A DNA stretch of 64,000 nucleotides from Fusobacterium ulcerans ATCC 49185 (GTDB taxonomy: Bacteria > Fusobacteriota > Fusobacteriia > Fusobacteriales > Fusobacteriaceae). Where the stretch lies: NCBI RefSeq assembly GCF_900683735.1, contig NZ_LR215979.1, positions 310,001-374,000 on the forward strand. Reading direction: 5' to 3'. A model generated the notes under the pieces. The model was not told where the DNA came from. It did no database searches and saw only the letters and a list, made by a program, of their open reading frames with translations. This document shows, piece by piece, positions 832 to 14,108 of this stretch (positions are counted from its first letter, which is position 1; every line of letters starts with the position of its first letter). Made by a program: the position numbers and the translations under genes.

Positions 832-1304
832 AAAAAATACTTGTAGTACTTAATCTCTTATTATTGATGATAGCTTTTGGGTATTCAGTAGTAAAAGAGG
901 AGAGAAATTTAAAACAAAAAACTTTCTATATAAAAACAGCTCCTGTTGATCCTCGTTCTTTAATACAGGGAGATTATATGATTCTTAATTATGATATTAC
1001 AGAGTCAGCCAGAGGAGAAGCAAGAAATTTAAGAAAAGGATATATAAGAGTTAGGCTAAATAATTTGAAAGTAGCTGAATTCATGGAAGTTAGTAAAGAA
1101 TATCTTCCATCATCTGATAATGAACTTTCTATTCAGTTTCATCAAAATGATTCTACTATAGATATAGGTGTTAATTCATATTTATTTCAGGAGGGAACTG
1201 GAAATAGATTTCAAAGAGCACAGTATGCAGAAGTTATAGAATTGAAAAGTGGTAAACTAAGATTAAAACATTTATTAGACAAAGACTTCAATATAATAAA
1301 ATAA
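828..1304 (+). CDS. GDYXXLXY domain-containing protein
   Basis: A 158-residue protein with one N-terminal hydrophobic segment (about residues 4-20), probably a signal anchor, followed by a soluble domain outside the membrane. The family signature GDYMILNY is present near residues 49-56, preceded by the usual PVDPRSLIQ stretch. These proteins pair with DUF2157/DUF4401 membrane proteins, as here, where the ATG overlaps the upstream stop (ATGA). The biochemical role of the pair is not known. The gene ends just before a bidirectional terminator shared with the convergent regulator gene. Length is typical of the family, so it appears intact. Confidence 0.85.
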   Translation: MKKILVVLNLLLLMIAFGYSVVKEERNLKQKTFYIKTAPVDPRSLIQGDYMILNYDITESARGEARNLRKGYIRVRLNNLKVAEFMEVSKEYLPSSDNELSIQFHQNDSTIDIGVNSYLFQEGTGNRFQRAQYAEVIELKSGKLRLKHLLDKDFNIIK

Positions 1305-1308
1305 GAAA

Positions 1309-1350
1309 AAGGCAGTTAAAATTTATAAAAGTTTTAACTGCCTTCTTTTT
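1309..1350. terminator. Bidirectional intrinsic terminator
   Basis: A 13-bp perfect inverted repeat (AAGGCAGTTAAAA at 1309-1321 and its complement at 1332-1344) is followed by a T run on the plus strand and, read from the other side, by a T-rich tract on the minus strand. It sits between the convergent GDYXXLXY gene and the GntR gene and can end both transcripts. Confidence 0.85.
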
Positions 1351-2053
1351 AACTTTGAGTGTTAGTAAAATAATCAGGGTGAATAAGAACTAATTTTTTT
1401 AGATATCCTTCAACTCTTTCATAGTTTTGCTGTGTATATGATACTAGTTTATCAACTGCTTTATTTCTTATATTTTCAGCAACTTCTCTATGATCTTTTA
1501 TAAAAAATTCTCCATAAAGCTGTTCCTCAAGATAAAGATTTAAAAAACGGTTATATTGAATATTGTTTAAACGAAGTATTTTCCAAACAAAACTAAATCC
1601 ATTGTATTCAAATATAGCTGAGTGGAACATATTATCATAGTCAAAAATTACAGTGCGAAAATTTTTGCTATTTTTATATTTATTTTCAGCCTCATCTAAT
1701 ATTTTATCAAGTTTATCAGCTAAGGGTTTAGTATCTTTTGTAGCGCACATATTAACTAAAACCTCTTTTTCTGCGATGCATCTTAGAAACCTACTTTCTA
1801 TTATCTGTTGATAATCAATAAGAACAACACGTGTCTTTTTTTTAGGTTGCACTTCAACCAAACCTTCATGATCCAATACCGAAATAGCTTCTCTGATAGG
1901 GCTTCTGCTTACATTAAATATTTGCTGTAATTTAGGCTCACTGATTGCTTCACCAGGTTTTATAGTAGCTCTAATAATACTTTCTCTAAGAGAACGGTAT
2001 ATAAAATCACGATTATTTTCATTTTCATATCTATCAAATTTAAAAATTTCCAT
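1349..2053 (-). CDS. GntR-family transcriptional regulator, FadR/FCD subfamily
   Basis: A 234-residue regulator with an N-terminal winged helix-turn-helix (about residues 10-75; the recognition helix region contains FNVSRSPIREAISVLDHEGL) and a C-terminal all-helical FCD-type effector domain. FadR-subfamily proteins usually bind palindromes and are released by small acid ligands. I chose the ATG at 2053 because GGAG lies 8 bases upstream; an in-frame TTG at 2059 overlaps that site. The gene is its own unit, separated by a terminator (2190-2224) from the acid-catabolic operon that precedes it on the same strand. The palindrome at 9230-9241 under that operon's promoter has the form FadR-type proteins favour, so this is its likely regulator. 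The ligand is probably an organic acid or its CoA ester (inference). Confidence 0.88.
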   Translation of the reverse strand: MEIFKFDRYENENNRDFIYRSLRESIIRATIKPGEAISEPKLQQIFNVSRSPIREAISVLDHEGLVEVQPKKKTRVVLIDYQQIIESRFLRCIAEKEVLVNMCATKDTKPLADKLDKILDEAENKYKNSKNFRTVIFDYDNMFHSAIFEYNGFSFVWKILRLNNIQYNRFLNLYLEEQLYGEFFIKDHREVAENIRNKAVDKLVSYTQQNYERVEGYLKKLVLIHPDYFTNTQS

Positions 2054-2169
2054 ACCCAAGTCTCCATTCCCTATTGATGATTTTATTTTTATATTACATA
2101 TATTAACATAAAACTTTTAAATAATACACTAAAAAAATCTATGTATAGCATAAAGGAAGAAAAATAATC

Positions 2170-2186
2170 TAGAATTTTAAATTCTA
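2170..2186. repeat. 17-bp AT-rich palindrome
   Basis: Eight-base arms TAGAATTT/AAATTCTA around a single T, between the terminator of the oxidoreductase operon and the GntR gene. It may be an operator or simply AT-rich chance symmetry; it does not resemble the 9230 palindrome. Confidence 0.3.
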
Positions 2187-2189
2187 TAT

Positions 2190-2224
2190 AAAAATAATAG
2201 CCTGCTTATACAGCAGACTATTAT
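2190..2224 (-). terminator. Terminator of the organic-acid catabolic operon
   Basis: Read on the minus strand, ATAATAGTCTGCT and AGCAGGCTATTAT form a 13-bp stem (one G-U pair) with a five-base loop, followed directly by TTTTTA. It lies 40 bases past the last operon gene and isolates the GntR gene from read-through. Confidence 0.85.
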
Positions 2225-2263
2225 CAATATTTAAGGGTAAGGATATTATGACAATAAATATTT

Positions 2264-2806
2264 TTATTGTTTGACTTTTTCAAATCCAATGTTAATAGCT
2301 TTTTCGTTCAGAATAAATAATTTTTCTTTTCCATGAAGTTTTTCTTTTAAAGTTTCAAAAGCTTCCTCTTTAGTAAAATCATTTGTAACCTTTGCAAATG
2401 CTCCAAGCATTACTGTATTTAAAACTTTCATATTTCCTAATTCAGTAGCTAGATCAGTAGCAGGAATATAGCAGACATTTACATCCTTTCTAGAAGTAGT
2501 TTTATTTTTTACTATGGAAGATTCAATCATTATCATTCCTCCAGGAATTACTTCATTTTCAAACTTATGTAAGGATACTTCATTCATTGCTATAAGAATA
2601 TCTATTCCATGTTTAATTATAGGAGAACCAATTGGTTCATCTGAATAAATTACTGAACAGTTAGCAGTTCCTCCACGCATTTCTGCTCCATAGGAAGGAA
2701 TCCATGTTACATTTAATCCACGATTCATTTGTATAAGAGCTATTATTTGACCTAGTGTCAGAACTCCTTGACCACCAAATCCTGCAAAAATTATTTTCTT
2801 TTTCAT
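2264..2806 (-). CDS. 2-oxoacid:ferredoxin oxidoreductase, gamma subunit
   Basis: A 180-residue gamma subunit of a multi-subunit 2-oxoacid:ferredoxin oxidoreductase. The N-terminus carries the family motif GFGGQGVLTLGQ (about residues 8-19), and the segment SYGAEMRGGTANCSVI (about 38-53) is typical of KorC/VorC-type subunits. The complex oxidatively decarboxylates a 2-oxoacid to its acyl-CoA and reduces ferredoxin. The gene lies two bases after the beta subunit gene, and GAGGTGAG provides a ribosome site at good spacing. It is the last gene of the operon, followed by a strong terminator. The closely spaced alpha, beta and ferredoxin genes upstream complete the enzyme. The oxoacid used (2-oxoglutarate, branched-chain or other) cannot be read from this subunit. 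Confidence 0.9.
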   Translation of the reverse strand: MKKKIIFAGFGGQGVLTLGQIIALIQMNRGLNVTWIPSYGAEMRGGTANCSVIYSDEPIGSPIIKHGIDILIAMNEVSLHKFENEVIPGGMIMIESSIVKNKTTSRKDVNVCYIPATDLATELGNMKVLNTVMLGAFAKVTNDFTKEEAFETLKEKLHGKEKLFILNEKAINIGFEKVKQ

Positions 2807-2808
2807 AA

Positions 2809-3564
2809 TTATCTCTCACCTCGTACATCTTTGTAAATTCCCAGAGGAAAATAATGTAGCATTTCATTTTTACACCATTCAATAGCATCTTTAGGAGATA
2901 ATCCCCATCCCACATTACATGTTCCTACAATTTCAATTAGAGAAAATCCTTTTCCTTCTTTTTGGCATTTAAAAGCATTAGAGATTGCTTTTTTTGCTTT
3001 AATAACATTTGCAGGAGTAGTTAGAGTAACTCTCTCTATATAGGTAGCTGAAGGAATTTGAGCTAAAACTTCACACATTTTAATTGGCAATCCAGCTGTT
3101 TTAGGATCTCTTCCATAAGGAGAAGTTGTAGTTTTTTGTCCTTCCAAAGTAGTTGGAGCCATTTGTCCACCAGTCATTCCATAGATAGCGTTATTCATAA
3201 AAATTATAGTAATATTCTCTCCTCTTACAGCAGCACTCATTGTTTCTCCTAAACCAATACTGGCAAGATCTCCATCTCCTTGATAAGTAAAAACAAGGGT
3301 ATTTTTATCAGAAATTGATCTTTTTATTCCAGTGGCAACGGCTGGAGCTCTTCCATGAGCAGCTTCTACAGCATCTATATTAAAGTATTCATAACTTAAT
3401 ACAGAACATCCAACTGAAGATACACACACAGAACTATCCAGCTCATTCATCTCTTCTAAGACTTCTGCAACAAGACGATGAGCAATTCCATGGGTACATC
3501 CAGGACAATAATGAGTTTCTTTCTCTGTAAGCCCCTTAGTTCTTTTAAAAATAATTTCCCCCAT
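2809..3564 (-). CDS. 2-oxoacid:ferredoxin oxidoreductase, beta subunit (TPP-binding)
   Basis: A 251-residue thiamine-pyrophosphate-binding subunit. CPGC at residues 20-23 gives the early cysteine pair; the TPP/Mg2+ motif begins GDGDLASIG, and NNAIYGMTGGQMAPTT follows, a pattern typical of the KOR/VOR branch rather than pyruvate oxidoreductase. The later KTTTSPYGRD segment also fits that branch. It forms the active site with the alpha subunit and passes electrons to the ferredoxin subunit encoded two genes upstream. It is separated by one base from the alpha gene and two from the gamma gene, so the three are one translational block. The start is ATG 3564 behind GAGGTG. Substrate specificity is inferred only to class level. 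Confidence 0.9.
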   Translation of the reverse strand: MGEIIFKRTKGLTEKETHYCPGCTHGIAHRLVAEVLEEMNELDSSVCVSSVGCSVLSYEYFNIDAVEAAHGRAPAVATGIKRSISDKNTLVFTYQGDGDLASIGLGETMSAAVRGENITIIFMNNAIYGMTGGQMAPTTLEGQKTTTSPYGRDPKTAGLPIKMCEVLAQIPSATYIERVTLTTPANVIKAKKAISNAFKCQKEGKGFSLIEIVGTCNVGWGLSPKDAIEWCKNEMLHYFPLGIYKDVRGER

Positions 3565-3565
3565 G

Positions 3566-4630
3566 TTATTTCACCTCTTTATAGTATTTTTCTATAGCAT
3601 TAGCCACTTCTTCACTGTCAAATAAATTTCCTCCACATCTCCCATAGAAACCTACTTCATATTTGCCAGCAACTCCAATTTTTACATCTTGAATCATTTG
3701 ACCCATACTAAGTTCAATTGACATAACAGCTTTACAAGATTCAGAAATATTTTTAAAGGCAGCATATGGGAAAGGCCATAAAGTAATAGGGCGTATCAGT
3801 CCAGCTTTTATCCCTTTTTTTCTTAAATCATTTATAGCATTTTTAACTATACGAGCAGATGTTCCATAAGATGCAATGATTATTTCAGCATCATCTACTA
3901 AATAGAGTTCAACCTCAGTTTCATTTTTTTCAATTTCATCATATTTTTTAAATAATTTTTGATTATGATTTTCGCAAGTATCAGTGTCTAAATAAATAGA
4001 AGTAATTATATGATGATCTTTTCTGCCTTTTTTTCCTGTGATAGTCCAGCTGGACTTGTCGATTGAAGGGAAAGTAATATCTTTAATTTCTACTCCTTCC
4101 ATCATTTGAGCTATAGTTCCATCTAATAGGAGCATCACAGGATTTCTATATTTATCAGCTATATAAAAAGCTTTTTGTGTTAGGTCAGAAAGTTCTTGAA
4201 GATTATAAGGAGCATATACTATGACATGATAATCTCCATTTCCCCCACCTCTTGTAGCTTGAAAATAATCTGATTGAGCAGGTTGTATACTTCCTAAACC
4301 AGGCCCTCCCCTACTTACACTTCCAATTACACAAGGAAGTTCAGCTCCACAACAGTATGCAATCCCTTCCTGTTTTAAGGCTATTCCAGGTGAGGAAGAG
4401 GAAGTCATACATCTTACTCCAGTAGATGCAGAGCCATAAACCATATTGATTGCGGCTACTTCAGATTCTGCTTGAACAAAAACTCCTCCTTCTATTTTAG
4501 GAAGTTCTTTTGACATATATTCAGGAATTTCATTTTGAGGAGTTATTGGATAACCAAAAAAATGTAAACATCCAGCTTTGATAGCTGAAGCTCCTAAAAC
4601 TTCTGATCCTTTCATCAATTTTTTTTTCAT
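3566..4630 (-). CDS. 2-oxoacid:ferredoxin oxidoreductase, alpha subunit
   Basis: A 354-residue alpha subunit (KorA/VorB class) containing the pyrimidine-binding region and the C-terminal swivel domain. Recognisable stretches include GYPITPQNEIPEYM near the N-terminus, ESEVAAINMVYGS, and RCMTSSSSPGIALKQEGI, all typical of four-subunit oxoacid oxidoreductases. I place the start at ATG 4630, which has AAGGAAGG about 8 bases upstream; a longer frame to 4672 would overlap the ferredoxin gene and lacks a better ribosome site. It works with the beta, gamma and ferredoxin products of neighbouring genes to make acyl-CoA, CO2 and reduced ferredoxin from a 2-oxoacid. The family does not fix the substrate, but a KOR/VOR-type acid fits better than pyruvate, since a full pyruvate enzyme is encoded at 11085-14108. 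Confidence 0.9.
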   Translation of the reverse strand: MKKKLMKGSEVLGASAIKAGCLHFFGYPITPQNEIPEYMSKELPKIEGGVFVQAESEVAAINMVYGSASTGVRCMTSSSSPGIALKQEGIAYCCGAELPCVIGSVSRGGPGLGSIQPAQSDYFQATRGGGNGDYHVIVYAPYNLQELSDLTQKAFYIADKYRNPVMLLLDGTIAQMMEGVEIKDITFPSIDKSSWTITGKKGRKDHHIITSIYLDTDTCENHNQKLFKKYDEIEKNETEVELYLVDDAEIIIASYGTSARIVKNAINDLRKKGIKAGLIRPITLWPFPYAAFKNISESCKAVMSIELSMGQMIQDVKIGVAGKYEVGFYGRCGGNLFDSEEVANAIEKYYKEVK

Positions 4631-4658
4631 TTTACACCTTCCTTTCGTTGCAAGTATT

Positions 4659-4874
4659 TTAGAACTTTTCAATAGTTATAACAGAGTCAGGACACATTAA
4701 AGCACAACTTTTACAACCTATACATTTATTTTTTTGAGCTTCATAGGCAGGATGATATCCTTTGGAATTGACTGTATTTTCATCAAGTTCTAATATTTTT
4801 AAAGGGCAGACTTCAACACATAAACCACAGCCTTTACAAATATCAATTTTAAAGTTCAGATTAATTTTAGTCAT
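4659..4874 (-). CDS. 2[4Fe-4S] ferredoxin subunit of the 2-oxoacid oxidoreductase (KorD-like)
   Basis: A 71-residue protein with two classic CxxCxxCxxxCP clusters: [12 protein letters not shown] near residues 14-25 and [12 protein letters not shown] near 51-62. It is the electron-transfer (delta) subunit that accepts electrons from the TPP site and passes them to free ferredoxin. It precedes the alpha gene, as in korDABC-type operons. The ribosome site is odd: AAGGAGG lies 31 bases upstream of the ATG with a perfect 7-bp hairpin in between, described separately. Length and cysteine spacing are normal. Confidence 0.92.
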
Positions 4875-4884
4875 AATTTTTTTT

Positions 4885-4911
4885 ATGATATTTATATATC
4901 ATAACCTCCTT
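4885..4911 (-). promoter_or_regulatory. Shine-Dalgarno separated from the ferredoxin start by a hairpin
   Basis: On the minus strand AAGGAGG (4905-4911) is followed after two bases by ATGATAT-ATAA-ATATCAT, a perfect 7-bp stem, then ten bases and the ferredoxin ATG at 4874. Folding the stem brings the ribosome site to about 12 bases from the start. An 11-codon frame starting inside the stem stops exactly over the ferredoxin ATG, so termination-reinitiation is another possibility. Confidence 0.45.
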
Positions 4912-4951
4912 ATGTAAGATTTAGATTAATAAAGGTAATCTATAAACCATT

Positions 4952-5626
4952 TTATTTCATCCAGCTTTTTCTATTAAAAAGCTTATCTATGTAAAATATA
5001 TTTTTATTTTGCAGTTTTTTTTGAACATCTTTATCTTTTTGTAAAAGAACAGTATAAATGACAGGGATATTCAATTTATGACTTACATTAAGAATAATTT
5101 TTTCTGCTGCTATAAGATCTTCTTCTGTTGAATATTCTAAAAGATTTGAGTTGTTAATAATACCTGTTATTTTAAAACTAGAAAAATTTTCATATTCTTT
5201 GATTAAATGAATAATTTTTTCTTCACTATCAGTTTCTTCCCGGTATATATTACAAATTAACCACATATCATATATAAAATTTTTATTTTTTAATGCTGTT
5301 AAAAGTTTTAAACCATTGATACTTCCAGCAAGGTCTACAACAACATTTTCCTTTTTTTCATTTAAAAGAGATTCAAAGCCATAACTTATTGCTGGGAGAT
5401 CGCTTCCATTATAATCAAAATTTGAAGAACCCCAGATTTTTATTCCTAATTTTTCTAACATTTCTTTATTTTCCCGTGAACGATAATAAACATTTATTAC
5501 ATCTAAATCAACTAAATTTATTTTTTTCTTCTGTTTTGCTAAAAAAAGAGAATATTGAATAGAAAACTCAGTTTTTCCACTTCCAGTATTTCCAGTTAAA
5601 ATTAAAACTTTACTATTTTTTCCCAT
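4952..5626 (-). CDS. P-loop NTPase of unknown function within the organic-acid operon
   Basis: A 224-residue ATPase/GTPase with an N-terminal Walker A motif GNTGSGKT (about residues 11-18), followed by VDLDVIN (about 39-45), which resembles the A' motif of MinD/CobQ-type proteins, and VVVDLAGS (about 92-99) as the Walker B region. The rest is an alternating alpha/beta domain without membrane segments. I place the start at ATG 5626 because AGGAG lies 8 bases upstream; a TTG at 5650 overlaps that region. Its position between the lyase gene and the oxidoreductase genes suggests it serves that pathway, for example in cofactor or iron-sulfur delivery or substrate-level assembly, but I do not recognise a characterised homologue. 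No function should be assigned beyond nucleotide binding. Confidence 0.7.
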   Translation of the reverse strand: MGKNSKVLILTGNTGSGKTEFSIQYSLFLAKQKKKINLVDLDVINVYYRSRENKEMLEKLGIKIWGSSNFDYNGSDLPAISYGFESLLNEKKENVVVDLAGSINGLKLLTALKNKNFIYDMWLICNIYREETDSEEKIIHLIKEYENFSSFKITGIINNSNLLEYSTEEDLIAAEKIILNVSHKLNIPVIYTVLLQKDKDVQKKLQNKNIFYIDKLFNRKSWMK

Positions 5627-5654
5627 AAAATATTCTCCTTTTTCTAACAATAAT

Positions 5655-6566
5655 TTATAAAGAACATTTAGACTTATAAACTGAATACATATGACTGTTA
5701 TTAAGCTTTACATCAACATATTGATTAAGCAGTTCTAAAGTATTATATAGTTTTTCAAGCTGTATGTTATGATTAATTCCCATTCCATTTAACATATTAA
5801 CAAAATCTTCTGTAGCAACATTTCCTGCTGCACCAGGAGCAAAGGGACATCCTCCTAATCCTCCAATAGAAGTTTCAAAAATAGAATATCCTAATTGCAA
5901 TGCAACAAGCATATTTGCCAATCCCATTCCACGAGTATCATGAATGTGTAAAATAATGTTTTCAGTTCCTACTTGTTCTTTTACTTGTTTTAATATCTTT
6001 TCAACTAATACAGGGTTACCTAATCCAACAGTATCCGCAAGCATTATTTCTTTGACTCCTATTTTTTTTGCTCTTTCTATAAGTTCAGAAACTCTTTCAG
6101 GTTTTATTTCTTCACCAAAAGGGCAACCAAATACTGTGGCAAGGTCTAAACGAAACTTCACATTAGGATATTTATATACCATTTCTTCTAATTCTTTAAA
6201 ACTTTCTTCTACAGTACGATTTACATTTGCTTTATTATGAGCTTCACTTACAGAAATAACTACAGAAATAACTTCTGCTCCAGAAGAAATAGCATTTTCC
6301 ACACCTTTTTTATTTGGACAAAGAACAATAACCTCATACTTTCTTTTATTTTTTTTGACACAAGTTTCACATATTTCTTTAGAATCTATCATTTGCGGGA
6401 TCCATTTTGGGTTTACAAATGAAGTGATTTCTATTTTATTACATCCTGCTTCTTCTAATGAGTCTATTATTTCTAATTTATGTTTAGTTTCAATGAAAGT
6501 TTTTATATTTTGAAAGCCATCACGAGGTCCTACTTCAACAATTTGGACTTTTTCAGGTAAATTCAT
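5655..6566 (-). CDS. HMG-CoA lyase-like DRE-TIM aldolase
   Basis: A 303-residue TIM-barrel lyase of the 3-hydroxy-3-methylglutaryl-CoA lyase family. The catalytic set is intact: GPRDGFQN (Arg15, Asp16), the metal-binding HIHD (His207, His209) and the mobile-loop cysteine in GGLGGCPFAPG (Cys240), followed by AGNVATED. The family cleaves 3-hydroxy-3-methylacyl-CoA thioesters by retro-Claisen reaction, classically HMG-CoA to acetoacetate and acetyl-CoA. The neighbouring CoA-transferase and tricarboxylate-type carrier suggest that here an imported hydroxy-dicarboxylic acid is activated and then cleaved. Related branched hydroxyacyl-CoAs such as citramalyl-CoA are alternatives. The start ATG 6566 has AGGAGG at good spacing. 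The protein is cytoplasmic and full length. Confidence 0.9.
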   Translation of the reverse strand: MNLPEKVQIVEVGPRDGFQNIKTFIETKHKLEIIDSLEEAGCNKIEITSFVNPKWIPQMIDSKEICETCVKKNKRKYEVIVLCPNKKGVENAISSGAEVISVVISVSEAHNKANVNRTVEESFKELEEMVYKYPNVKFRLDLATVFGCPFGEEIKPERVSELIERAKKIGVKEIMLADTVGLGNPVLVEKILKQVKEQVGTENIILHIHDTRGMGLANMLVALQLGYSIFETSIGGLGGCPFAPGAAGNVATEDFVNMLNGMGINHNIQLEKLYNTLELLNQYVDVKLNNSHMYSVYKSKCSL

Positions 6567-6590
6567 TTGAGTACCTCCTATTCAGATAAA

Positions 6591-7787
6591 TTACATAATT
6601 CCTTTTTCTTGATAATTTTTTATCTCTTCTTCAGACATATTTAACATTTTTTTATATATTTCTTCTGTATGTTGACCAAGAAGAGGGGCACAAGTTCTTA
6701 TTTTTGGCATAGTATCCATAAGCTTTATAGGATTTCCATTTACTCTCATAGTTCCTATTATTGGATGCTCTATAGTGACAAACATCTCCCTTTCTTCTGC
6801 AATATGTTTATCTTCAGAAATATCTTTAAGATTTAAAATAGGAGCAGCAGGAACTCCTGCAGCAAGAATCATGTCTACTGCTTCTTTTGAAGTAACAGTT
6901 GCAGACCATTTTTCAATTTCTGTTTTTAAAGAAGCATGATTCTCACATCTTAAATGATTTGTAAGAAACAGCGGATTTTCAAGTAAATCAGGTCTATTAA
7001 GTACTTGATTGCAAAGAAGGGTAAAGAGTTTTTGATTTCCACATCCTATAACAAACATTCCATCTTTTGATTTAAAAGAATCATATGGAGAAACAGCAGC
7101 GTATCTATTTCCTAATAATTTGGGAATTTCATTATTTACAAAATACCTTTGTGTACCAGTTTCTAAAGCAGATACAACAGAATCTACAAGAGAAACATCA
7201 ACTCTCTGTCCTTTTTTTATAATTTGTCTTGCATTCAAAGCTGCTAAGATTCCAATTGTTAGATTCATTCCTCCAAGTACATCTCCCATGGCATTTCCTG
7301 CCCTTGTAGGAGTACCATTTTCAGGACCTGTAATACTCATAAGTCCACCCATAGCCTGAGCAATAATATCATAACCAGGTCTTTCATGATAAGAACCATA
7401 AAATCCGAATCCTGAAACAGCTGCATATATAATTTGAGGATTAACTTCTTTTAAAACTTCATATCCAAGTCCTAATTTATCCATTACACCTGGACGATAG
7501 TTTTCAACTACAACATCTGCTTTTTTTACAAGTTCTTTAAATATAGATTTTCCTTCTTCAGATTTTAAATTAAGAGTTACACCGTGTTTGTTTCTGTTTA
7601 TATTTGCATAATACATACTTTCCCCATTTTTAAAAGGTCCCATTCCTCTTGTATCATCACCTTTTCCAGGAATTTCTATTTTTATAACTTCAGCTCCCAT
7701 ATCAGCCAGCATTGCAGTACAATATGGACCAGCTAAAACACGAGTTAAATCTAAAACTACAATATTGCTAAGTGCTCCTTTTTCCAT
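6591..7787 (-). CDS. CaiB/BaiF-family (class III) CoA-transferase
   Basis: A 398-residue class III CoA-transferase. The N-terminal half shows LDLTRVLAGPYCTAMLADMGAE (first twenty-two residues of the motif region cited only in part here: LDLTRVLAGP), the NLNRNKHGV-like NINRNKHGVTLNL segment, and the catalytic aspartate in NAMGDVLGG at residue 169, the position known for formyl-CoA transferase. These enzymes move CoA between carboxylic acids through an aspartyl-CoA intermediate. In this operon it most likely activates the acid imported by the CitMHS carrier so the adjacent lyase can cleave it. The CoA donor is probably succinyl- or acetyl-CoA (inference). The gene is 24 bases upstream of the lyase gene and 34 bases after the transporter. 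Length is normal. Confidence 0.9.
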   Translation of the reverse strand: MEKGALSNIVVLDLTRVLAGPYCTAMLADMGAEVIKIEIPGKGDDTRGMGPFKNGESMYYANINRNKHGVTLNLKSEEGKSIFKELVKKADVVVENYRPGVMDKLGLGYEVLKEVNPQIIYAAVSGFGFYGSYHERPGYDIIAQAMGGLMSITGPENGTPTRAGNAMGDVLGGMNLTIGILAALNARQIIKKGQRVDVSLVDSVVSALETGTQRYFVNNEIPKLLGNRYAAVSPYDSFKSKDGMFVIGCGNQKLFTLLCNQVLNRPDLLENPLFLTNHLRCENHASLKTEIEKWSATVTSKEAVDMILAAGVPAAPILNLKDISEDKHIAEEREMFVTIEHPIIGTMRVNGNPIKLMDTMPKIRTCAPLLGQHTEEIYKKMLNMSEEEIKNYQEKGIM

Positions 7788-7821
7788 TTATTATGCCTCC
7801 TAAAATTTGTTCCAAGTTTAT

Positions 7822-9192
7822 TTATGCTACTCCAATCATTATTGCTGCAAGAACCATAATAGTTGATACAGCTATAAAATATTTTAAAGAGAATTTTATA
7901 TGATCTTTAAGTTCCACTCCTGCAAGGCCAATTGCTAAAAATGTTGTTGGGATACATGGTGAAATAACTACTCCTACATTTTCTCCAATAAGCATAGCAA
8001 GACCTACTTTTATAGGACTTCCACCTAGTGCTTTTACTACTTCTCCAACTACTGGTAGTAACGAATAGTAATACAGATCTGGACTTAATATAATTCCTAT
8101 TGCAGATCCTAAAGCTCCAAATACACGTCCAATTTGAGGAAGGAAAACATTAGGAAGGTTGTCTAAAACAACATTGGCAAGAGCAATTGTCATACCAGTT
8201 TCTTTAAAAATACCCAAGAAAATACCAGCTGCTAAGAATGTAGCTGCAGTTCCTACAGCAGTAGGAGCATGAGCTTGAACTCTTTCGTTTTGAATTTTTA
8301 ATCCTTTGTAATTAATTACCAAGGCTATAGCTGTGGCAATTAAAAATACTAGATAACTAGGTATTTTTGAATTTACTATCATAATTATTATAATTACAGC
8401 AGTTAAAAGTAAATTTAAAGGTAAAAGTTTAGGACGTTTTAAATCAGTTATTTCTTGTGAAATAACAGGTTCTTCAGTAACTGCTTTATCAAAATAGTCT
8501 GCTCCATATTCTTTTATTAATCTTTTTTTATCTTGAATTCCAAAAAGTACTCCTAATCCTATTCCAAGAAACATTCCTAAAATTTCTATTGGAAGAATCA
8601 TTTTCCAAAGTTCTTGAGGAGTAACAGGAATTCCAAGATTTGTAATTGTTGTAGCAGTACGAATTATAGTTCCACCCCAAGGAACCATATTCCATGAACC
8701 AGTAACAATTCCAATAACAGTAAGCATTCCTAAAATATTAAGTTTTAATTTTTTAAATATTGGAAGCATTGCTGGAATAGTTATTAAATAAGTAGTGGCA
8801 GTAGCACCATCTAACTGTGAAACTAAAGCAATTAATGCAGTTGTAAGATATATCATTACAGGACTTTTACCAGCAATTTTAACAAGGCCTTTTACAATAG
8901 GATCAAACATACCCGCATCACTCATTATTCCAAAATAAATAATTGAAAAGATAAAAAGAGTAGCATTACTCATTGTCGTTTTTACTCCACCAGAGCACCA
9001 GTCAACCATGGTATTAAGTTGAACGCCAAGGGGGATTGCTTCCCCACCTGGACCAGTAAAAGTTCCAGTTAAAATTAGAATTACAGCAGAAATGATAGGC
9101 AAACACACAAAGGCAACAATAGGTGATACTTTATTTTTTAACAACAAATACATCATTGAACATATAAGCAACAATGCTACAAAAACAACCAT
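7822..9192 (-). CDS. CitMHS-family metal-citrate-type/organic-acid transporter
   Basis: A 456-residue membrane protein with about 11-12 hydrophobic segments. Family-specific stretches are SQLDGATATTYLI (about residues 125-137) and GSWNMVPWGGTIIR (about 165-178), which match CitMHS carriers that import tricarboxylates, often as metal complexes, with protons or sodium. It is the first gene of the catabolic operon, behind AAGGAGG and a strong promoter/palindrome arrangement, so uptake is controlled with the pathway. The CoA-transferase and HMG-CoA-lyase-like enzyme downstream suggest a branched hydroxy di- or tricarboxylate rather than plain citrate, as no citrate lyase genes are nearby. Substrate is an inference. 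Confidence 0.88.
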   Translation of the reverse strand: MVVFVALLLICSMMYLLLKNKVSPIVAFVCLPIISAVILILTGTFTGPGGEAIPLGVQLNTMVDWCSGGVKTTMSNATLFIFSIIYFGIMSDAGMFDPIVKGLVKIAGKSPVMIYLTTALIALVSQLDGATATTYLITIPAMLPIFKKLKLNILGMLTVIGIVTGSWNMVPWGGTIIRTATTITNLGIPVTPQELWKMILPIEILGMFLGIGLGVLFGIQDKKRLIKEYGADYFDKAVTEEPVISQEITDLKRPKLLPLNLLLTAVIIIIMIVNSKIPSYLVFLIATAIALVINYKGLKIQNERVQAHAPTAVGTAATFLAAGIFLGIFKETGMTIALANVVLDNLPNVFLPQIGRVFGALGSAIGIILSPDLYYYSLLPVVGEVVKALGGSPIKVGLAMLIGENVGVVISPCIPTTFLAIGLAGVELKDHIKFSLKYFIAVSTIMVLAAIMIGVA

Positions 9193-9229
9193 ATGATATC
9201 CTCCTTAATAAATTTATTCCCCTACATTT

Positions 9230-9241
9230 CTTGTCGACAAG
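9230..9241. promoter_or_regulatory. Palindromic operator, probable GntR/FadR-type site
   Basis: CTTGTCGACAAG is a perfect 12-bp palindrome lying about 6-17 bases downstream of the predicted transcription start of the organic-acid operon. Many FadR-subfamily GntR regulators bind sites of the TTGT-NN-ACAA type. A regulator of that class is encoded next to the operon end, so repression by roadblock is likely. Confidence 0.65.
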
Positions 9242-9253
9242 TTTTATAATCAG

Positions 9254-9283
9254 ATTATAAACATAAAAAAATAAAAAAGTCAA
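9254..9283 (-). promoter_or_regulatory. Sigma-70-type promoter of the organic-acid operon
   Basis: On the minus strand TTGACT (9278-9283) and TATAAT (9254-9259) are separated by 18 bases. This is the closest match to consensus seen in this intergenic region, and the predicted start near 9247 gives a leader of about 55 bases to the transporter ATG. Confidence 0.75.
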
Positions 9284-9398
9284 CAAAAATTTAGAATGAA
9301 TTGATTTAATAATGTAAAAATAGTCTAAAATTCGGTCTATAAAAATTAAAAAATAATATCAAATATTTTTTTATGAAAAATAGAGAAGTGTATAATTA

Positions 9399-9424
9399 TA
9401 GTATTTTTATCGTTAAAAATACTA
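9399..9424. repeat. 11-bp perfect inverted repeat
   Basis: TAGTATTTTTA and its exact complement TAAAAATACTA flank TCGT, upstream of the organic-acid operon promoter and downstream of the comM terminator. It lacks a T tract, so a protein-binding site or DNA cruciform is possible; AT richness makes chance symmetry also possible. Confidence 0.35.
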
Positions 9425-9445
9425 TTTTATATGAAAGGGATAATA

Positions 9446-9486
9446 AAAAAAATCGTAAATAATTATTTAAAATTACTTACGATTTT
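9446..9486 (-). terminator. Terminator after comM/yifB
   Basis: Minus-strand AAAATCGTAAGTAATT pairs with AATTATTTACGATTTT (one G-U pair), followed by a run of T. It lies 12 bases past the stop codon of the yifB-type gene. Confidence 0.85.
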
Positions 9487-9498
9487 GAAATGTGAAAT

Positions 9499-10998
9499 TT
9501 ATTTTTTTCTAAAGGAAACTGCTTCCATTAAATGATATTTTTTTATGTCTTTACAACCTTCTAGATCAGCAATGGTTCTTGCTACTTTCAGAATTTTATC
9601 ATAACCTCTTGCAGATATTTCCATTATTCTCATAGCATTTTTAAAATATTCTTTGTCTTCATCTGCAATCTTACAATATTTTTTTATTTCTTTTTGTCCC
9701 AGATTTCCATTTAAAAGATCACTATTATATCTTTTTCTTTGAATTTCTCGAGCTTTCATCACTCTTTCTTTTATAGTATTTGAATTTTCTGCTTCAGCTG
9801 AATTCATTAGTTCATCTTCTGACAGTCTTCTCATTTCAATATGAATATCAATCCTATCCATGATAGGACCAGAAAGTTTTTTCATATATTTATTTACTTC
9901 ATGTTGAGTACAGGTGCATGAAGCACCTTCATAATAATTCCCACAAAAACATGGATTACTTGTAGCAAGAAGCTGAAATTTACTTAAAAATTCAACTCTG
10001 TATTGAGCTCTTGTAATGGAAACTAAACCATCTTCCAAAGGCTGCCTTAAACTTTCTAAAACACTTCTTGGAAATTCTGCAAGTTCATCTAGTAGTAAGA
10101 CACCATTAGATGCCAAACTTATTTCACCAGGTTTTATTCTTTTTCCTCCACCTATAATTGAAGTAAGTGAACTTGTGTGATGAGGAGAACGAAAAGGTCT
10201 TTGATTAATTATTGGTTTTTTACTGTTAAGCTCACCAGCAACACTGTATATTTTTGTAGATTCAATTATTTCTTCTTCACTCATTGATGGGAGAATAGTT
10301 ATCATTCTTTTAGCAAGCATAGATTTTCCAGAACCAGGACTTCCTATTAATATTATATTGTGTCCACCAGCAGCAGCAATTTCTAATCCTCTTTTTCCTA
10401 GTGCTTGCCCCTTTACTTCTGAGAAATCTATACTATAATCTTTTTCTTCAAGGAATGGTTTTATATTTAAAGATTTAATTTGACCTTTAGAAATAAAATC
10501 AGCAACTTCTCTCAAGGTTGAAACAGGGACAATATCTATCCCTTTGATAAGAGAAGCTTCCTGTACATTATCCTCTGGAATAACTACACCTTTGTATCCT
10601 TTTTCTTTTACCAGAATCATTGTATTTATTATTCCTTTTACTCCTCTGATTTTTCCATCTAGAGAAAGTTCTCCTAGAAAAAGATAATTATCTAATGTAG
10701 AATTTCTATCTCTTACAAATCCCATAGCTACCATTATACCAACAGCTATAGGAAGATCAAATTGAGCTCCTTCTTTTTTTATTCCAGCTGGGGAAAGATT
10801 TACTATTATTTTTTTAGGTTCCATTTTGAAATCACTATTTTTTAATGCAGTTCTTACTCTATCTTTACTTTCTGAGATGGCAGTGTCTCCTAAACCTACT
10901 ATTGAAAAAAATGGAAGTCCACTGCTGATATCTACTTCAGCTTCTACTAAAAAAGGTTCTACTCCTAAATAACTGGAACTTAAAACTCTTATATTCAT
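9499..10998 (-). CDS. comM: YifB/ComM family Mg-chelatase-like AAA+ ATPase
   Basis: A 499-residue protein with an N-terminal Lon-protease-like (ChlI) domain, a central AAA+ Mg-chelatase domain with Walker A GSPGSGKSMLAKR (about residues 218-230) and Walker B VLLLDELAEF (about 299-308), and a C-terminal Mg_chelatase_C region. The loop with CFCGNYYEGASCTCTQHE carries the usual cysteines. ComM homologues are hexameric helicases that promote branch migration of incoming DNA during natural transformation. Length matches the family. The start ATG 10998 has GGAG 11 bases upstream, slightly far. It is separated from the por operon by a terminator and is probably transcribed alone. Confidence 0.93.
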   Translation of the reverse strand: MNIRVLSSSYLGVEPFLVEAEVDISSGLPFFSIVGLGDTAISESKDRVRTALKNSDFKMEPKKIIVNLSPAGIKKEGAQFDLPIAVGIMVAMGFVRDRNSTLDNYLFLGELSLDGKIRGVKGIINTMILVKEKGYKGVVIPEDNVQEASLIKGIDIVPVSTLREVADFISKGQIKSLNIKPFLEEKDYSIDFSEVKGQALGKRGLEIAAAGGHNIILIGSPGSGKSMLAKRMITILPSMSEEEIIESTKIYSVAGELNSKKPIINQRPFRSPHHTSSLTSIIGGGKRIKPGEISLASNGVLLLDELAEFPRSVLESLRQPLEDGLVSITRAQYRVEFLSKFQLLATSNPCFCGNYYEGASCTCTQHEVNKYMKKLSGPIMDRIDIHIEMRRLSEDELMNSAEAENSNTIKERVMKAREIQRKRYNSDLLNGNLGQKEIKKYCKIADEDKEYFKNAMRIMEISARGYDKILKVARTIADLEGCKDIKKYHLMEAVSFRKK

Positions 10999-11029
10999 AA
11001 ATTAAGGTGCTCCTCTGACAATTTTTTTA

Positions 11030-11084: not shown

Positions 11085-12023
11085 TTAAAGTTCCTCTCCA
11101 CATCTTTTAAGAAGTCTTTCCCATTTCAAATCCACATCTTTTTGGATTCTATCTATGATATGTCTGTTTTGTGGTTTAAATAGATGCTTGAATCTTCCTT
11201 GTTTTTTCAAGAATTCTTCTACAGGCAGTTTTACTTTTGGTCTGTAGCTTAATTTCCATTCTCCATCTATTACTTCAAATAGTGGCCAGTAGCAAGTTTC
11301 TACTGCCAGTTTACACATTTCCATCAGGTCTTCACCTTCATATCTCCATCCTCTTGGGCATGGTGCTAATATGTTTAGGAATGCTGCTCCCTCTGTATAG
11401 ATTGCTTTTTCTGCTTTCTCATGAAGGTCTTTGAAGTTTCCTATAAATGTTGTTTGAGCAACATATGCCACATTGTGGGCTGATATTACATCTGTAAGAT
11501 CTTTTCTTCCCTGTGGTTTTCCTGCGCTTTCTTTTCCTATTGGAGTTGTAGTTGTATCTGCTCCTATAGGTGTTGCTGATGATCTTTGGATACCTGTATT
11601 CATATATGCTTCATTGTCATAACATACATAAACCATATCATGTCCTCTTTCCATTGCTCCTGAAAGTGATTGGAATCCTATATCATAAGTTCCTCCATCT
11701 CCTCCAAAAGCTATGAATTTATATGATTCATCTATTTTTCCTTTTTTCTTTAATACTTTGTATGCTGTCTGGGCTCCACTTATTGTTGCTGCTGCATTTT
11801 CAAATGCTGAGTGAATAAATGAATCTTTCCATGCTGTATATGGATAAAGGAAAGTTGATACTTCAAGACAGCTTGTTGCACTGCATATTACTGCCTCATC
11901 TTCCTCTTTTAATGCTCTTAATACTCCTCTTACTGCTACTGGTGCTCCACACCCTGCACACATTCTGTGTCCTCCAGTAAGTCTTTCAGGTTTTTCCATT
12001 TCTTTTTTGAAATTATATGCCAT
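11085..12023 (-). CDS. porB: Pyruvate:ferredoxin oxidoreductase, beta subunit
   Basis: A 312-residue TPP-binding subunit of the four-subunit pyruvate synthase type. Cysteines for the proximal [4Fe-4S] cluster are visible in RMCAGCG (Cys22, Cys25), around residues 47-52 and in LAPCPRGW. The TPP motif is GGDGGTYDIGFQS followed by YDNEAYMNTGIQ, characteristic of PorB and different from the KOR-type beta subunit at 2809-3564. The enzyme converts pyruvate and CoA to acetyl-CoA, CO2 and reduced ferredoxin, central in anaerobic amino-acid and sugar fermentation. It is the last gene of porCDAB and precedes a strong terminator. It is complete and typical. Confidence 0.93.
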   Translation of the reverse strand: MAYNFKKEMEKPERLTGGHRMCAGCGAPVAVRGVLRALKEEDEAVICSATSCLEVSTFLYPYTAWKDSFIHSAFENAAATISGAQTAYKVLKKKGKIDESYKFIAFGGDGGTYDIGFQSLSGAMERGHDMVYVCYDNEAYMNTGIQRSSATPIGADTTTTPIGKESAGKPQGRKDLTDVISAHNVAYVAQTTFIGNFKDLHEKAEKAIYTEGAAFLNILAPCPRGWRYEGEDLMEMCKLAVETCYWPLFEVIDGEWKLSYRPKVKLPVEEFLKKQGRFKHLFKPQNRHIIDRIQKDVDLKWERLLKRCGEEL

Positions 12024-12035
12024 ATTCCTTTCCTC

Positions 12036-13214
12036 CTACCCTCTTACACCAAAATGTCTATATGTATCTTTTACTTCTTGATCTTTCTCTGCCAATAGAG
12101 TATTAAAGATCTCTTTTATATGATTTACAGTTATATCTCTTCCTCCAAGTCCATATACATAGTTGATCATTTTTGGTCTTGGGCTGCAGTCATAAAGAGC
12201 TGATCTTACCTCTGCAAATACTGGTCCTCCAGCTGCTGAGAATCCTTCGCATTTATCCATTACTGCTACCATTTTTACATTTTTAAGCGCTTGTGCTATT
12301 TCTTCCATTGGGAATGGTCTGAATACTCTGATTTTTAGAAGTCCAACTTTTTTACCTTCTTTTCTCATTTCTTCTATAGCTGCTTTAGCTGTTCCAGCAG
12401 TTGAGTTGATAACCACTATTGCAACTTCTGCATCATCTAATTTATATTCTTCAAACAGTCCATATTTTCTTCCAGTAAGTTTTTCATATTCTGCTGCTAC
12501 TTCAAGAATTACTTTTTTAGCATTCATCATAGCATGAGCTTGGCTTACTTTATGTTCCATATAGTAAGAAACAATATCATATGGTCCTACTGCTGTAGGT
12601 CTTTTAGCATTTAGAAGATAATCTTCTGGGTTGTATTCTCCAACAAAAGCTTTAGCTTTGTCGTCTTCTAATAATTCTATATTTTCAACAGCATGGCTTG
12701 TGATGAATCCATCTTGACATACCATAACAGGAAGTTGAACATCTGGATGTTCTCCTATTCTGTTAGCTTGAAGCATATTGTCATAAGCTTCTTGATTTGT
12801 TTCACTGTATAGCTGAATCCATCCAGCATCTCTTGCACCCATAGAATCACTATGGTCTGCATTGATATTGATAGGTCCTGTAAGAGCTCTGTTAACACAT
12901 GCTAAAGTTACAGGAAGTCTTGCAGAAGCTACAACATAAAGCATTTCCCACATCAATGCAAGTCCGCATGATGAAGTAGCAGTCATAGTTCTAGCTCCTG
13001 CTGCTTGTGATCCCATTGCAGCCGACATAGCGCTGTGCTCTGATTCTACTGGAATAAATTCACTGTCTACTGATCCATCAGCAACATATTGAGAGAAATA
13101 TTGTGGTATCTCTGTTGATGGAGTGATTGGAAAAGCAGGTACTACATCTGGATTTATTTGTCTCATTGCTATTGCAATAGCTTCGTTTCCTGACATTCTT
13201 TCTCTTATACTCAT
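12036..13214 (-). CDS. porA: Pyruvate:ferredoxin oxidoreductase, alpha subunit
   Basis: A 392-residue alpha subunit. Family stretches include GNEAIAIAMRQINPDVVPAF with FPITPSTEIPQYF near the N-terminus, PVESEHSAMSAAMGS, and TATSSCGLALMWEM. The C-terminal part has the domain II/swivel region with DKCEGFSAAGGPVFAEV, typical of PorA. It pairs with PorB to form the active site. The gene starts at ATG 13214 and ends 12 bases before porB. Codon choice (more GC at third positions and a less extreme AT bias) suggests a highly expressed operon compared with the organic-acid operon next door. Confidence 0.93.
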   Translation of the reverse strand: MSIRERMSGNEAIAIAMRQINPDVVPAFPITPSTEIPQYFSQYVADGSVDSEFIPVESEHSAMSAAMGSQAAGARTMTATSSCGLALMWEMLYVVASARLPVTLACVNRALTGPININADHSDSMGARDAGWIQLYSETNQEAYDNMLQANRIGEHPDVQLPVMVCQDGFITSHAVENIELLEDDKAKAFVGEYNPEDYLLNAKRPTAVGPYDIVSYYMEHKVSQAHAMMNAKKVILEVAAEYEKLTGRKYGLFEEYKLDDAEVAIVVINSTAGTAKAAIEEMRKEGKKVGLLKIRVFRPFPMEEIAQALKNVKMVAVMDKCEGFSAAGGPVFAEVRSALYDCSPRPKMINYVYGLGGRDITVNHIKEIFNTLLAEKDQEVKDTYRHFGVRG

Positions 13215-13230
13215 TAATTCTACCTCCGAA

Positions 13231-13533
13231 CTACTCTTTTATCAATTCTATTGCTTTGAATGGACATGCTTTAACACAAATTCCACATCCTTTGCAATGA
13301 TCCATATCAAACTCTAATCTTTTTCCATCTTTTACAGGTATTGCTGAATCTGGGCAGCAAGGAACACATAGAAGACAGTCAATACATTTATCTCTCAAAA
13401 GAACTGGTTTCATTGATCTCCAGTCCCCTGTTCTGAAGTGCTGAGCACTTCCAGCTTCATAAACTACTCCACCAGGAGTTATATCTCTCCAGCTAATATC
13501 TTCAGTAATTGGTACACCAGCTTTATTTTTCAT
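13231..13533 (-). CDS. porD: Pyruvate:ferredoxin oxidoreductase, delta (ferredoxin) subunit
   Basis: A 100-residue subunit with two [4Fe-4S] motifs, CIDCLLCVPCCP and CKGCGICVKACP, in its C-terminal two thirds. The N-terminal part with WRSMKPVL is typical of PorD. It relays electrons from the TPP site to external ferredoxin. Its ATG overlaps the porC stop by one base (TAATG), showing tight coupling. Order porC-porD-porA-porB is the usual four-subunit arrangement. Confidence 0.94.
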   Translation of the reverse strand: MKNKAGVPITEDISWRDITPGGVVYEAGSAQHFRTGDWRSMKPVLLRDKCIDCLLCVPCCPDSAIPVKDGKRLEFDMDHCKGCGICVKACPFKAIELIKE

Positions 13534-14108
13534 TATTCTTTCACCTCATTCATAGAACGTACTAATGCAGCCATATTTCCTTTTAGTACTTCTGGTTTAC
13601 TTGCAAATTTGTGCGCAAAAGAGTTTTCCATTGCTTCTAGGAAAGCTTTTTCTTCCATAACTCCACTTACTTTTACAACTGCTCCAAGCATAGGAGTGTT
13701 AGGGAAGTTTTTCCCAAGAGTTTCCTCAGAAATAGTTCTTGCATCACAAGTACATACTCTTCCTTTGTATCCTTTTAAAAGAGATTTAAATTCAGAAGCA
13801 GGCTTAGAACTATTGATAATAATAGCTCCATCCTCTTTAAGACCTTTAGTAACATCTACACTTTCAATAAGAGTTTCATCAACAACAACTACAAAATCAG
13901 GTTCATAGATATTAGAGTGAACAGTAACTCTATCTTTAGAGATACGATTGTAAGCGGTAATAGGAGCTCCCATTCTCTCAGGTCCATACTCTGGGAACCC
14001 TTGAACGAACATTCCACCACTGAATGCTGCATCTGCCAAAAGTAAAGAAGCTGTTTTGGCTCCTTGTCCACCTCTTCCATGCCATCTTATTTCAAAAATT
14101 TCTTTCAT
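13533..14108 (-). CDS. porC: Pyruvate:ferredoxin oxidoreductase, gamma subunit
   Basis: A 191-residue gamma subunit beginning with the family signature WHGRGGQGAKTAS (about residues 9-21), followed by FPEYGPERMGAPITAYNR (about 39-56), which is diagnostic for PorC rather than KorC. The gamma subunit is the CoA-binding domain of the complex. It is the first gene of the operon, so the promoter lies in the 550-base region upstream, where an extended -10 element and a pair of direct repeats are seen. The presence of both this enzyme and the KOR-type enzyme means the cell can oxidise at least two classes of 2-oxoacid. Confidence 0.93.
   Translation of the reverse strand: MKEIFEIRWHGRGGQGAKTASLLLADAAFSGGMFVQGFPEYGPERMGAPITAYNRISKDRVTVHSNIYEPDFVVVVDETLIESVDVTKGLKEDGAIIINSSKPASEFKSLLKGYKGRVCTCDARTISEETLGKNFPNTPMLGAVVKVSGVMEEKAFLEAMENSFAHKFASKPEVLKGNMAALVRSMNEVKE

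Follow-up and report, generated by a model that had tools for sequence, protein, structure and literature searches.

The lyase of itaconate degradation clusters is CitE-like and acts on (S)-citramalyl-CoA. In Chloroflexus, a succinyl-CoA:citramalate CoA-transferase is reportedly paired with an R-citramalyl-CoA lyase, as Friedmann's work of 2006 and 2007 is said to have established. For the FadR subfamily of GntR regulators, the accessible text of one study (PMC4494728) gives the operator consensus TKGT/ACMA, with 2-3 nt separating GT and AC. According to the same text, the residue at helix-turn-helix (HTH) position 39, FadR Thr46, correlates with the central operator bases, and a Pro at HTH position 40 avoids a G/C pair at K.

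Here, we analyzed a 64,000-nucleotide stretch of Fusobacterium ulcerans ATCC 49185 DNA (the window), in which an earlier note had paired a palindrome just downstream of a near-consensus promoter with a FadR-type GntR regulator encoded next to the distal end of the same operon. Our main reading, to which we assign a probability of roughly 0.85, is that this GntR binds the palindrome CTTGTCGACAAG as its operator and acts as a roadblock repressor of the operon until an organic acid or CoA ester releases it. We infer binding and induction, and we infer the sign of regulation from the position of the site.

A probable organic-acid operon and its candidate control region

The operon lies on the minus strand and begins with a CitMHS-type transporter gene (7822-9192; PF03600, with TIGR00784 at 245.5 bits, slightly below its cut-off of 259.7). 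Next come genes for a class III CoA-transferase (6591-7787; PF02515), whose nearest solved chains are YfdE and a succinate-hydroxymethylglutarate CoA-transferase, and an HMG-CoA-lyase-like lyase (5655-6566; PF00682, NF004283 above cut-off), whose nearest solved chains are HMG-CoA lyases. By Pfam assignment, a class III CoA-transferase gene thus adjoins an HMGL-family lyase gene, the arrangement of a citramalate-type pair. The remaining genes encode a P-loop protein (4952-5626) with weak CbiA/SRP54/MinD-type matches, every one under cut-off, a 71-residue ferredoxin-type subunit (4659-4874; Fer4 families), and the alpha (3566-4630; PF01855, PF17147; NF005507 VorB above cut-off), beta (2809-3564; PF02775) and gamma (2264-2806; PF01558) subunits of a 2-oxoacid:acceptor oxidoreductase. 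Together, these genes probably specify an organic-acid fermentation route. A second 2-oxoacid:acceptor oxidoreductase-like cluster of four genes occupies 11085-14108, directly upstream of yifB; its alpha and beta subunits match those of the operon weakly (27-28% in the congener G001). In that congener, the HMGL gene (L047:7722-8629) is split between two frames, in two overlapping tblastn pieces, reflecting a frameshift or an assembly error.

The FadR-type gene said to adjoin the distal end of the operon is real. It occupies 1349-2059 on the minus strand and encodes an FCD-type GntR regulator with an N-terminal winged HTH (PF00392, 59 bits against a cut-off of 27), the recognition helix SRSPIRE and an FCD domain (PF07729, 33.5 bits against 24.3). 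The FCD domain is present too in the five linked GntRs outside the genus. The best match among solved chains has an E value of 1.5e-15, and none of the NCBIfam equivalogs compared with the protein reached its cut-off. A terminator-like hairpin found by scanning (2193-2225, minus strand) separates the operon from gntR; it is soft evidence, since six such matches were found where 3.9 were expected. At two distant loci described below (L080 and L083), a hairpin was likewise read by eye between the lyase gene and gntR. Given these hairpins, gntR is probably transcribed largely apart from the operon, outside the control of the site at 9230-9241. That site is the sole window match to CTTGTCGACAAG with up to two mismatches (one copy; shuffles give likewise, mean 0.85), so no second copy lies at gntR.

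The promoter and palindrome were both found as the earlier note had described them. A motif scan places a sigma-70-type promoter, TTGACT-18-TATAAT, at 9254-9283 on the minus strand (TTGACT at 9283-9278, an 18-nt spacer, TATAAT at 9259-9254). With 11/12 consensus matches, it ranks first among 64 promoter-like matches in the scan of 1200-11000; as the shuffle mean is 49.9, the weaker matches carry little meaning. The perfect 12-bp palindrome CTTGTCGACAAG follows at 9230-9241 (minus strand), 12 nt after the -10. If transcription starts 7-8 nt after the -10, the palindrome would span about +6/+7 to +17/+18, close to the claimed position of about +6 to +17. The ATG of the transporter gene, at 9192, lies 37 bp past it.

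Conservation of the site with its linked regulator

In two congeners, the GntR orthologs are 95% (G001) and 92% (G002) identical and lie in the same operon. A three-way alignment of the upstream regions, including that of the window genome (G000), leaves both promoter hexamers and 12/12 palindrome bases unchanged while much else drifts. Two further blocks upstream of the promoter, at window positions 9305-9330 and 9390-9425, are also kept in the three congeners; they comprise CGAATTTTAGACTATT and the inverted repeat TAGTATTTTT...AAAAATACTA.

A scan of contigs that used the GntR alignment as query gave a single locus, L080, from an Acidaminococcaceae bacterium (G149) that we infer to belong to another phylum than the window genome. 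This locus carries the transporter, CoA-transferase, lyase and GntR (56% identical) in the same order as the window. It also carries CTTGTCGACAAG itself, at 5234-5245, behind a TTGACA-17-TATTAT promoter and again exactly 12 nt from it; the zero-order chance of finding CTTGTCGACAAG within 120 bp is 3-5e-6. A GntR search at E <= 1e-45 among 398 genomes sampled from the phylum of G149 retrieved G149 only, and among 63 genomes of its order we found one further carrier of the regulator, G153. At its locus (L083), the transporter, CoA-transferase, lyase and GntR genes recur, accompanied by two sites in tandem, GTTGTCGACAAG and ATTGTCGACAAA. When one mismatch to CTTGTCGACAAG is allowed, the sole other place in each of these two genomes is a CTTGTCCACAAG.

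These comparisons bear on whether the palindrome is a protein-binding site at all. It could instead be a chance palindrome or an element of a leader RNA, and perfect 12-bp palindromes are indeed common in this DNA of 30% G+C (33 observed in the window against a shuffle mean of 35). In Markov shuffles of the 306-bp intergenic region, a 12-bp palindrome appears in 42% of trials; one with at least 40% G+C appears in just 0.2%. Both this G+C content and the conservation in the congeners and at L080 speak against chance, and we regard this reading as highly improbable, the least credible of those considered here. A leader RNA hairpin was rejected, as folding was no better than in shuffles (z = +1.45, with a 4-bp stem). 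The exact 12-mer has a single copy in the whole genome of 3,839,419 bases, so the concern that the palindrome might be common and unlinked to its targets is not borne out there. Judged at the level of sequence, the palindrome by itself is weak evidence, and its linkage to regulator and operon is strong.

A second clade, represented by G027, G036 and G009, combines the CoA-transferase and lyase with a linked FCD GntR of 32-38% identity. The sites before the CoA-transferase gene read CTAGTCGACTAG in G027, CTAGTCGACAAG in G036 and CTAGTCGACTAA in G009; an extra site, CTAGTCGACGAC, precedes a neighboring flavoprotein gene in G036. In all, we found eight operons that combine CoA-transferase and lyase with a linked FCD GntR, and a GTCGAC-centered site was present in 8/8. 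These operons were found through GntR or lyase searches, never picked by the palindrome; being kin by descent or transfer, they do not represent eight independent events. When the best promoter within 70 nt upstream is taken, the distance from the -10 to one site is 11-15 nt in each operon (12 nt in G000, 11 in G001, 12 in G002, 12 in G149, 13 in G153, 11 in G036, and 15 in both G027 and G009), the promoter of G153 being weak at 8/12 consensus matches. The extra sites are placed differently, 0 nt (G153) and 4 nt (G036) after a -10. Site-to-start gaps are 30 bp in G153 (ATG at L083:6715) and 17 bp in G036 (ATG at L070:5191).

Gene sets that pair CoA-transferase with lyase near other types of regulator served as controls, and none of the three (G033, G040, G095) has the site before it. 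The nearby regulators are sigma-54 activators with PrpR_N in G033 and G040, where the G040 contig stops within the lyase gene, and a diacid-type regulator in G095. The HMGL search behind these sets gave 18 matches in 17 genomes, and 14 neighborhoods were covered (G101, G106, G129 and G144 being left out). They divide into six GntR-linked operons, three with a CoA-transferase and other regulators, and five with neither; these last five (G022, the second of G033, G104, G124 and G128) yielded no CoA-transferase match, GntR match or site. The operons of G149 and G153 came through the GntR searches. At loci L115-L118, the CoA-transferase/lyase pair is accompanied by varying helpers, including aconitase-type subunits, PrpF, MatC/CitMHS carriers and a 2-hydroxyacid dehydrogenase. 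Regulators at these loci also vary, with FCD GntR, diacid-type proteins and sigma-54 activators with PrpR_N all represented, which gives the impression of a core re-wired from one genome to the next.

Exact copies of CTWGTCGACWAG occur in 13 of 149 genomes. Five of them (G000, G001, G002, G027 and G036) have one copy each, at the operon. Seven distant genomes have theirs inside an open reading frame, and the surrounding stretch contains no operon homolog; we set these aside as chance. G022 has two copies, one in a mechanically called open reading frame and one promoter-like (TTGACA-17-TAAATA-12 nt-site, 9/12 consensus). Its GntR is 56% identical to that of the window and has the same recognition helix, is not on a CoA-transferase/lyase operon, and has TRAP transporter genes as neighbors (read by eye); no intergenic site linked to the gene was found in G022. 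With one mismatch allowed, this genome of 55% G+C has 22 matching places, compared with 7 for a reversed control pattern. At L121:8740-8985 (G022:C37), CTTGTCGACAAG sits 12 nt after a promoter-like pair, and a strong terminator-like hairpin (by eye) follows within about 130 nt; this element may be a small RNA or a leader that the G022 GntR controls.

Operator center, recognition helix and a second FCD GntR

The earlier note had proposed searching the genome for further copies to define a regulon. The search returned one exact site, so the regulator probably controls one operon, and the term "regulon" probably overstates its reach. Allowing one mismatch in TTGTCGACAA adds 22 places in the window genome, of which 11 were seen in context; we rejected a multi-site regulon. 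Places centered on TTGTTGACAA can merely contain the -35 hexamer TTGACA. The reversed-pattern control for TTGTCGACAA (426 vs 23) serves poorly as a null, given how seldom GTCGAC occurs in this genome: 234,704 bases, a sample biased to GntR loci, contain three, the one in the window and two at the gene of a second FCD GntR. A literature search for TTGTCGACAA found no title about a GntR operator among the papers listed, and one combining Fusobacterium, citramalate and GntR yielded no papers.

That second FCD GntR, with the helix SRAP (C1:99318-99998, within G000:C1:97911-100060; L033, L172), is the notable exception among the one-mismatch places. Intergenic GTCGAC sites lie on either side of its gene, ATTGTCGACATT and AATGTCGACTTT, one preceding the gene itself and the other preceding an iron alcohol dehydrogenase gene. 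The latter lies 15 nt after a -10; no good promoter is present at such a distance from the gene's own site. The window site might thus belong to another regulator, above all this one, given that both SRAP-linked sites share the TGTCGAC core with it and that GTCGAC is retained at both places in G001 and G002. However, the SRAP gene is 220 kb away from the operon, and close orthologs of it turned up in G000, G001 and G002 alone. In the other six genomes searched, all with a Ser-helix GntR, the best SRAP matches are 26-30% identical, whereas a linked GntR accompanies the site in eight genomes. We therefore consider it unlikely that the window site belongs to a regulator other than the linked GntR.

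The window site also fits the FadR-subfamily consensus. Within it, TTGT-CG-ACAA (9231-9240) matches TKGT/ACMA with 2-nt spacing, as that consensus is given in PMC4494728; the second-clade sites, which read TAGT with A at K, fit it more poorly. The helix of the window GntR (S51-R52-S53-P54-I55-R56-E57) has Ser at position 39 and Pro at position 40, and the Pro agrees with T at K in the window site under the rule given there. In a tree of 31 GntRs, the residue at position 39 is Ser in 8/8 site-linked proteins (SRSP or SKSP), Thr in 22/22 comparison proteins and Ser in G022. The site-linked proteins fall into two separate clades, forcing at least two changes of label on the tree. A Fisher test of the Ser/Thr association, leaving out the G022 protein, gives 1.7e-7, a value that is too strong because relatedness is ignored. 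Among the 26 GntR-type HTHs of the window genome (25 above cut-off), only that of the window GntR has the SRSP helix. At 41 loci with Thr, Asn or Met regulators (at least one region counted twice), no intergenic GTCGAC lies within 1.5 kb and five have coding ones; the comparison is unequal, the window site being 7 kb from gntR.

The proposed regulator-operator pairing thus draws strong support, at the level of sequence comparison, from conservation in congeners, from site sequence and spacing at L080, from the 8/8 against 0/3 distribution and from the helix signature. More tentatively, and with somewhat less than an even chance in our estimation, we suggest a recognition sub-code in which replacement of Thr by a small residue, Ser or Ala, at the FadR Thr46 position goes with G+C-centered GTCGAC operators in three FCD lineages, together with a cassette of transporter, CoA-transferase, lyase, regulator and operator that traveled as one between distant bacteria, its promoter-operator spacing kept to the base. 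Two of the small-residue lineages are on CoA-transferase/lyase operons, and one is next to the iron alcohol dehydrogenase. The Ser/Ala and Thr regulators with their sites provide a natural data set on how FCD-GntR proteins read operator centers. The general interest is moderate, residing in a possible sub-code and a conserved cassette.

Proposed regulation and relation to known systems

In the proposed mechanism, a GntR dimer bound from about +6 to +18 at the transporter promoter would block initiation or early elongation. A pathway substrate or CoA-ester intermediate would bind the FCD domain and release GntR, allowing joint production of the functions for uptake, CoA activation, lyase cleavage and the ferredoxin-linked oxidation of the 2-oxo acid that cleavage yields. 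Repression is favored by the position of the site together with the near-consensus promoter and the single target. Because the sign is deduced from position, the linked GntR might instead act here as an activator or fine-tuner. Activators rarely sit downstream of the -10, and this site does so at a promoter with 11/12 consensus matches; we judge such a role very unlikely and retain repression by the linked GntR as the preferred reading.

For the ligand, our best guess, a weak one, is citramalate or another 2-alkylmalate, or the corresponding CoA ester. The combination of CoA-transferase, HMGL-type lyase and 2-oxoacid oxidoreductase suggests a route in which a 2-alkylmalate receives CoA and is then split into acetyl-CoA and a 2-oxo acid. 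Aconitase-type and PrpF genes are also present in the G009 operon, in keeping with an unsaturated precursor, for example citraconate. Another serious candidate is 3-hydroxy-3-methylglutarate, since HMG-CoA lyases are the closest solved relatives of the lyase and, of the two nearest transferases, one is a succinate-hydroxymethylglutarate CoA-transferase; the accessible part of PMC3150298 offered nothing useful on the lyase. The candidate pair involves a single site and a single operon and poses a clear question about the ligand; the inducer would name the substrate.

Among known systems, the Chloroflexus citramalate pair resembles the window operon at the level of genes, in that a class III CoA-transferase adjoins an HMGL-family lyase. 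Unlike that pair, the window operon adds a transporter and a 2-oxoacid oxidoreductase, and its lyase has HMG-CoA lyases as nearest solved relatives. Itaconate degradation clusters, as the available text of PMC12290011 presents them, likewise pair a CoA-transferase with a C5-dicarboxylyl-CoA lyase; they include an itaconyl-CoA hydratase, which was not seen in the window operon, and the window lyase is HMGL-type, unlike theirs. On the regulatory side, the locus is like FadR-subfamily (FCD) GntRs with palindromic operators, as far as the accessible source describes them, in its GntR winged HTH plus FCD architecture, its fit to TKGT/ACMA and its linkage to a carboxylate-type operon. It differs from the typical members in the CG center of its site and in the Ser that replaces Thr at HTH position 39. 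The window GntR is a protein without a characterized close relative, within a type of regulator-operator system that is itself known.
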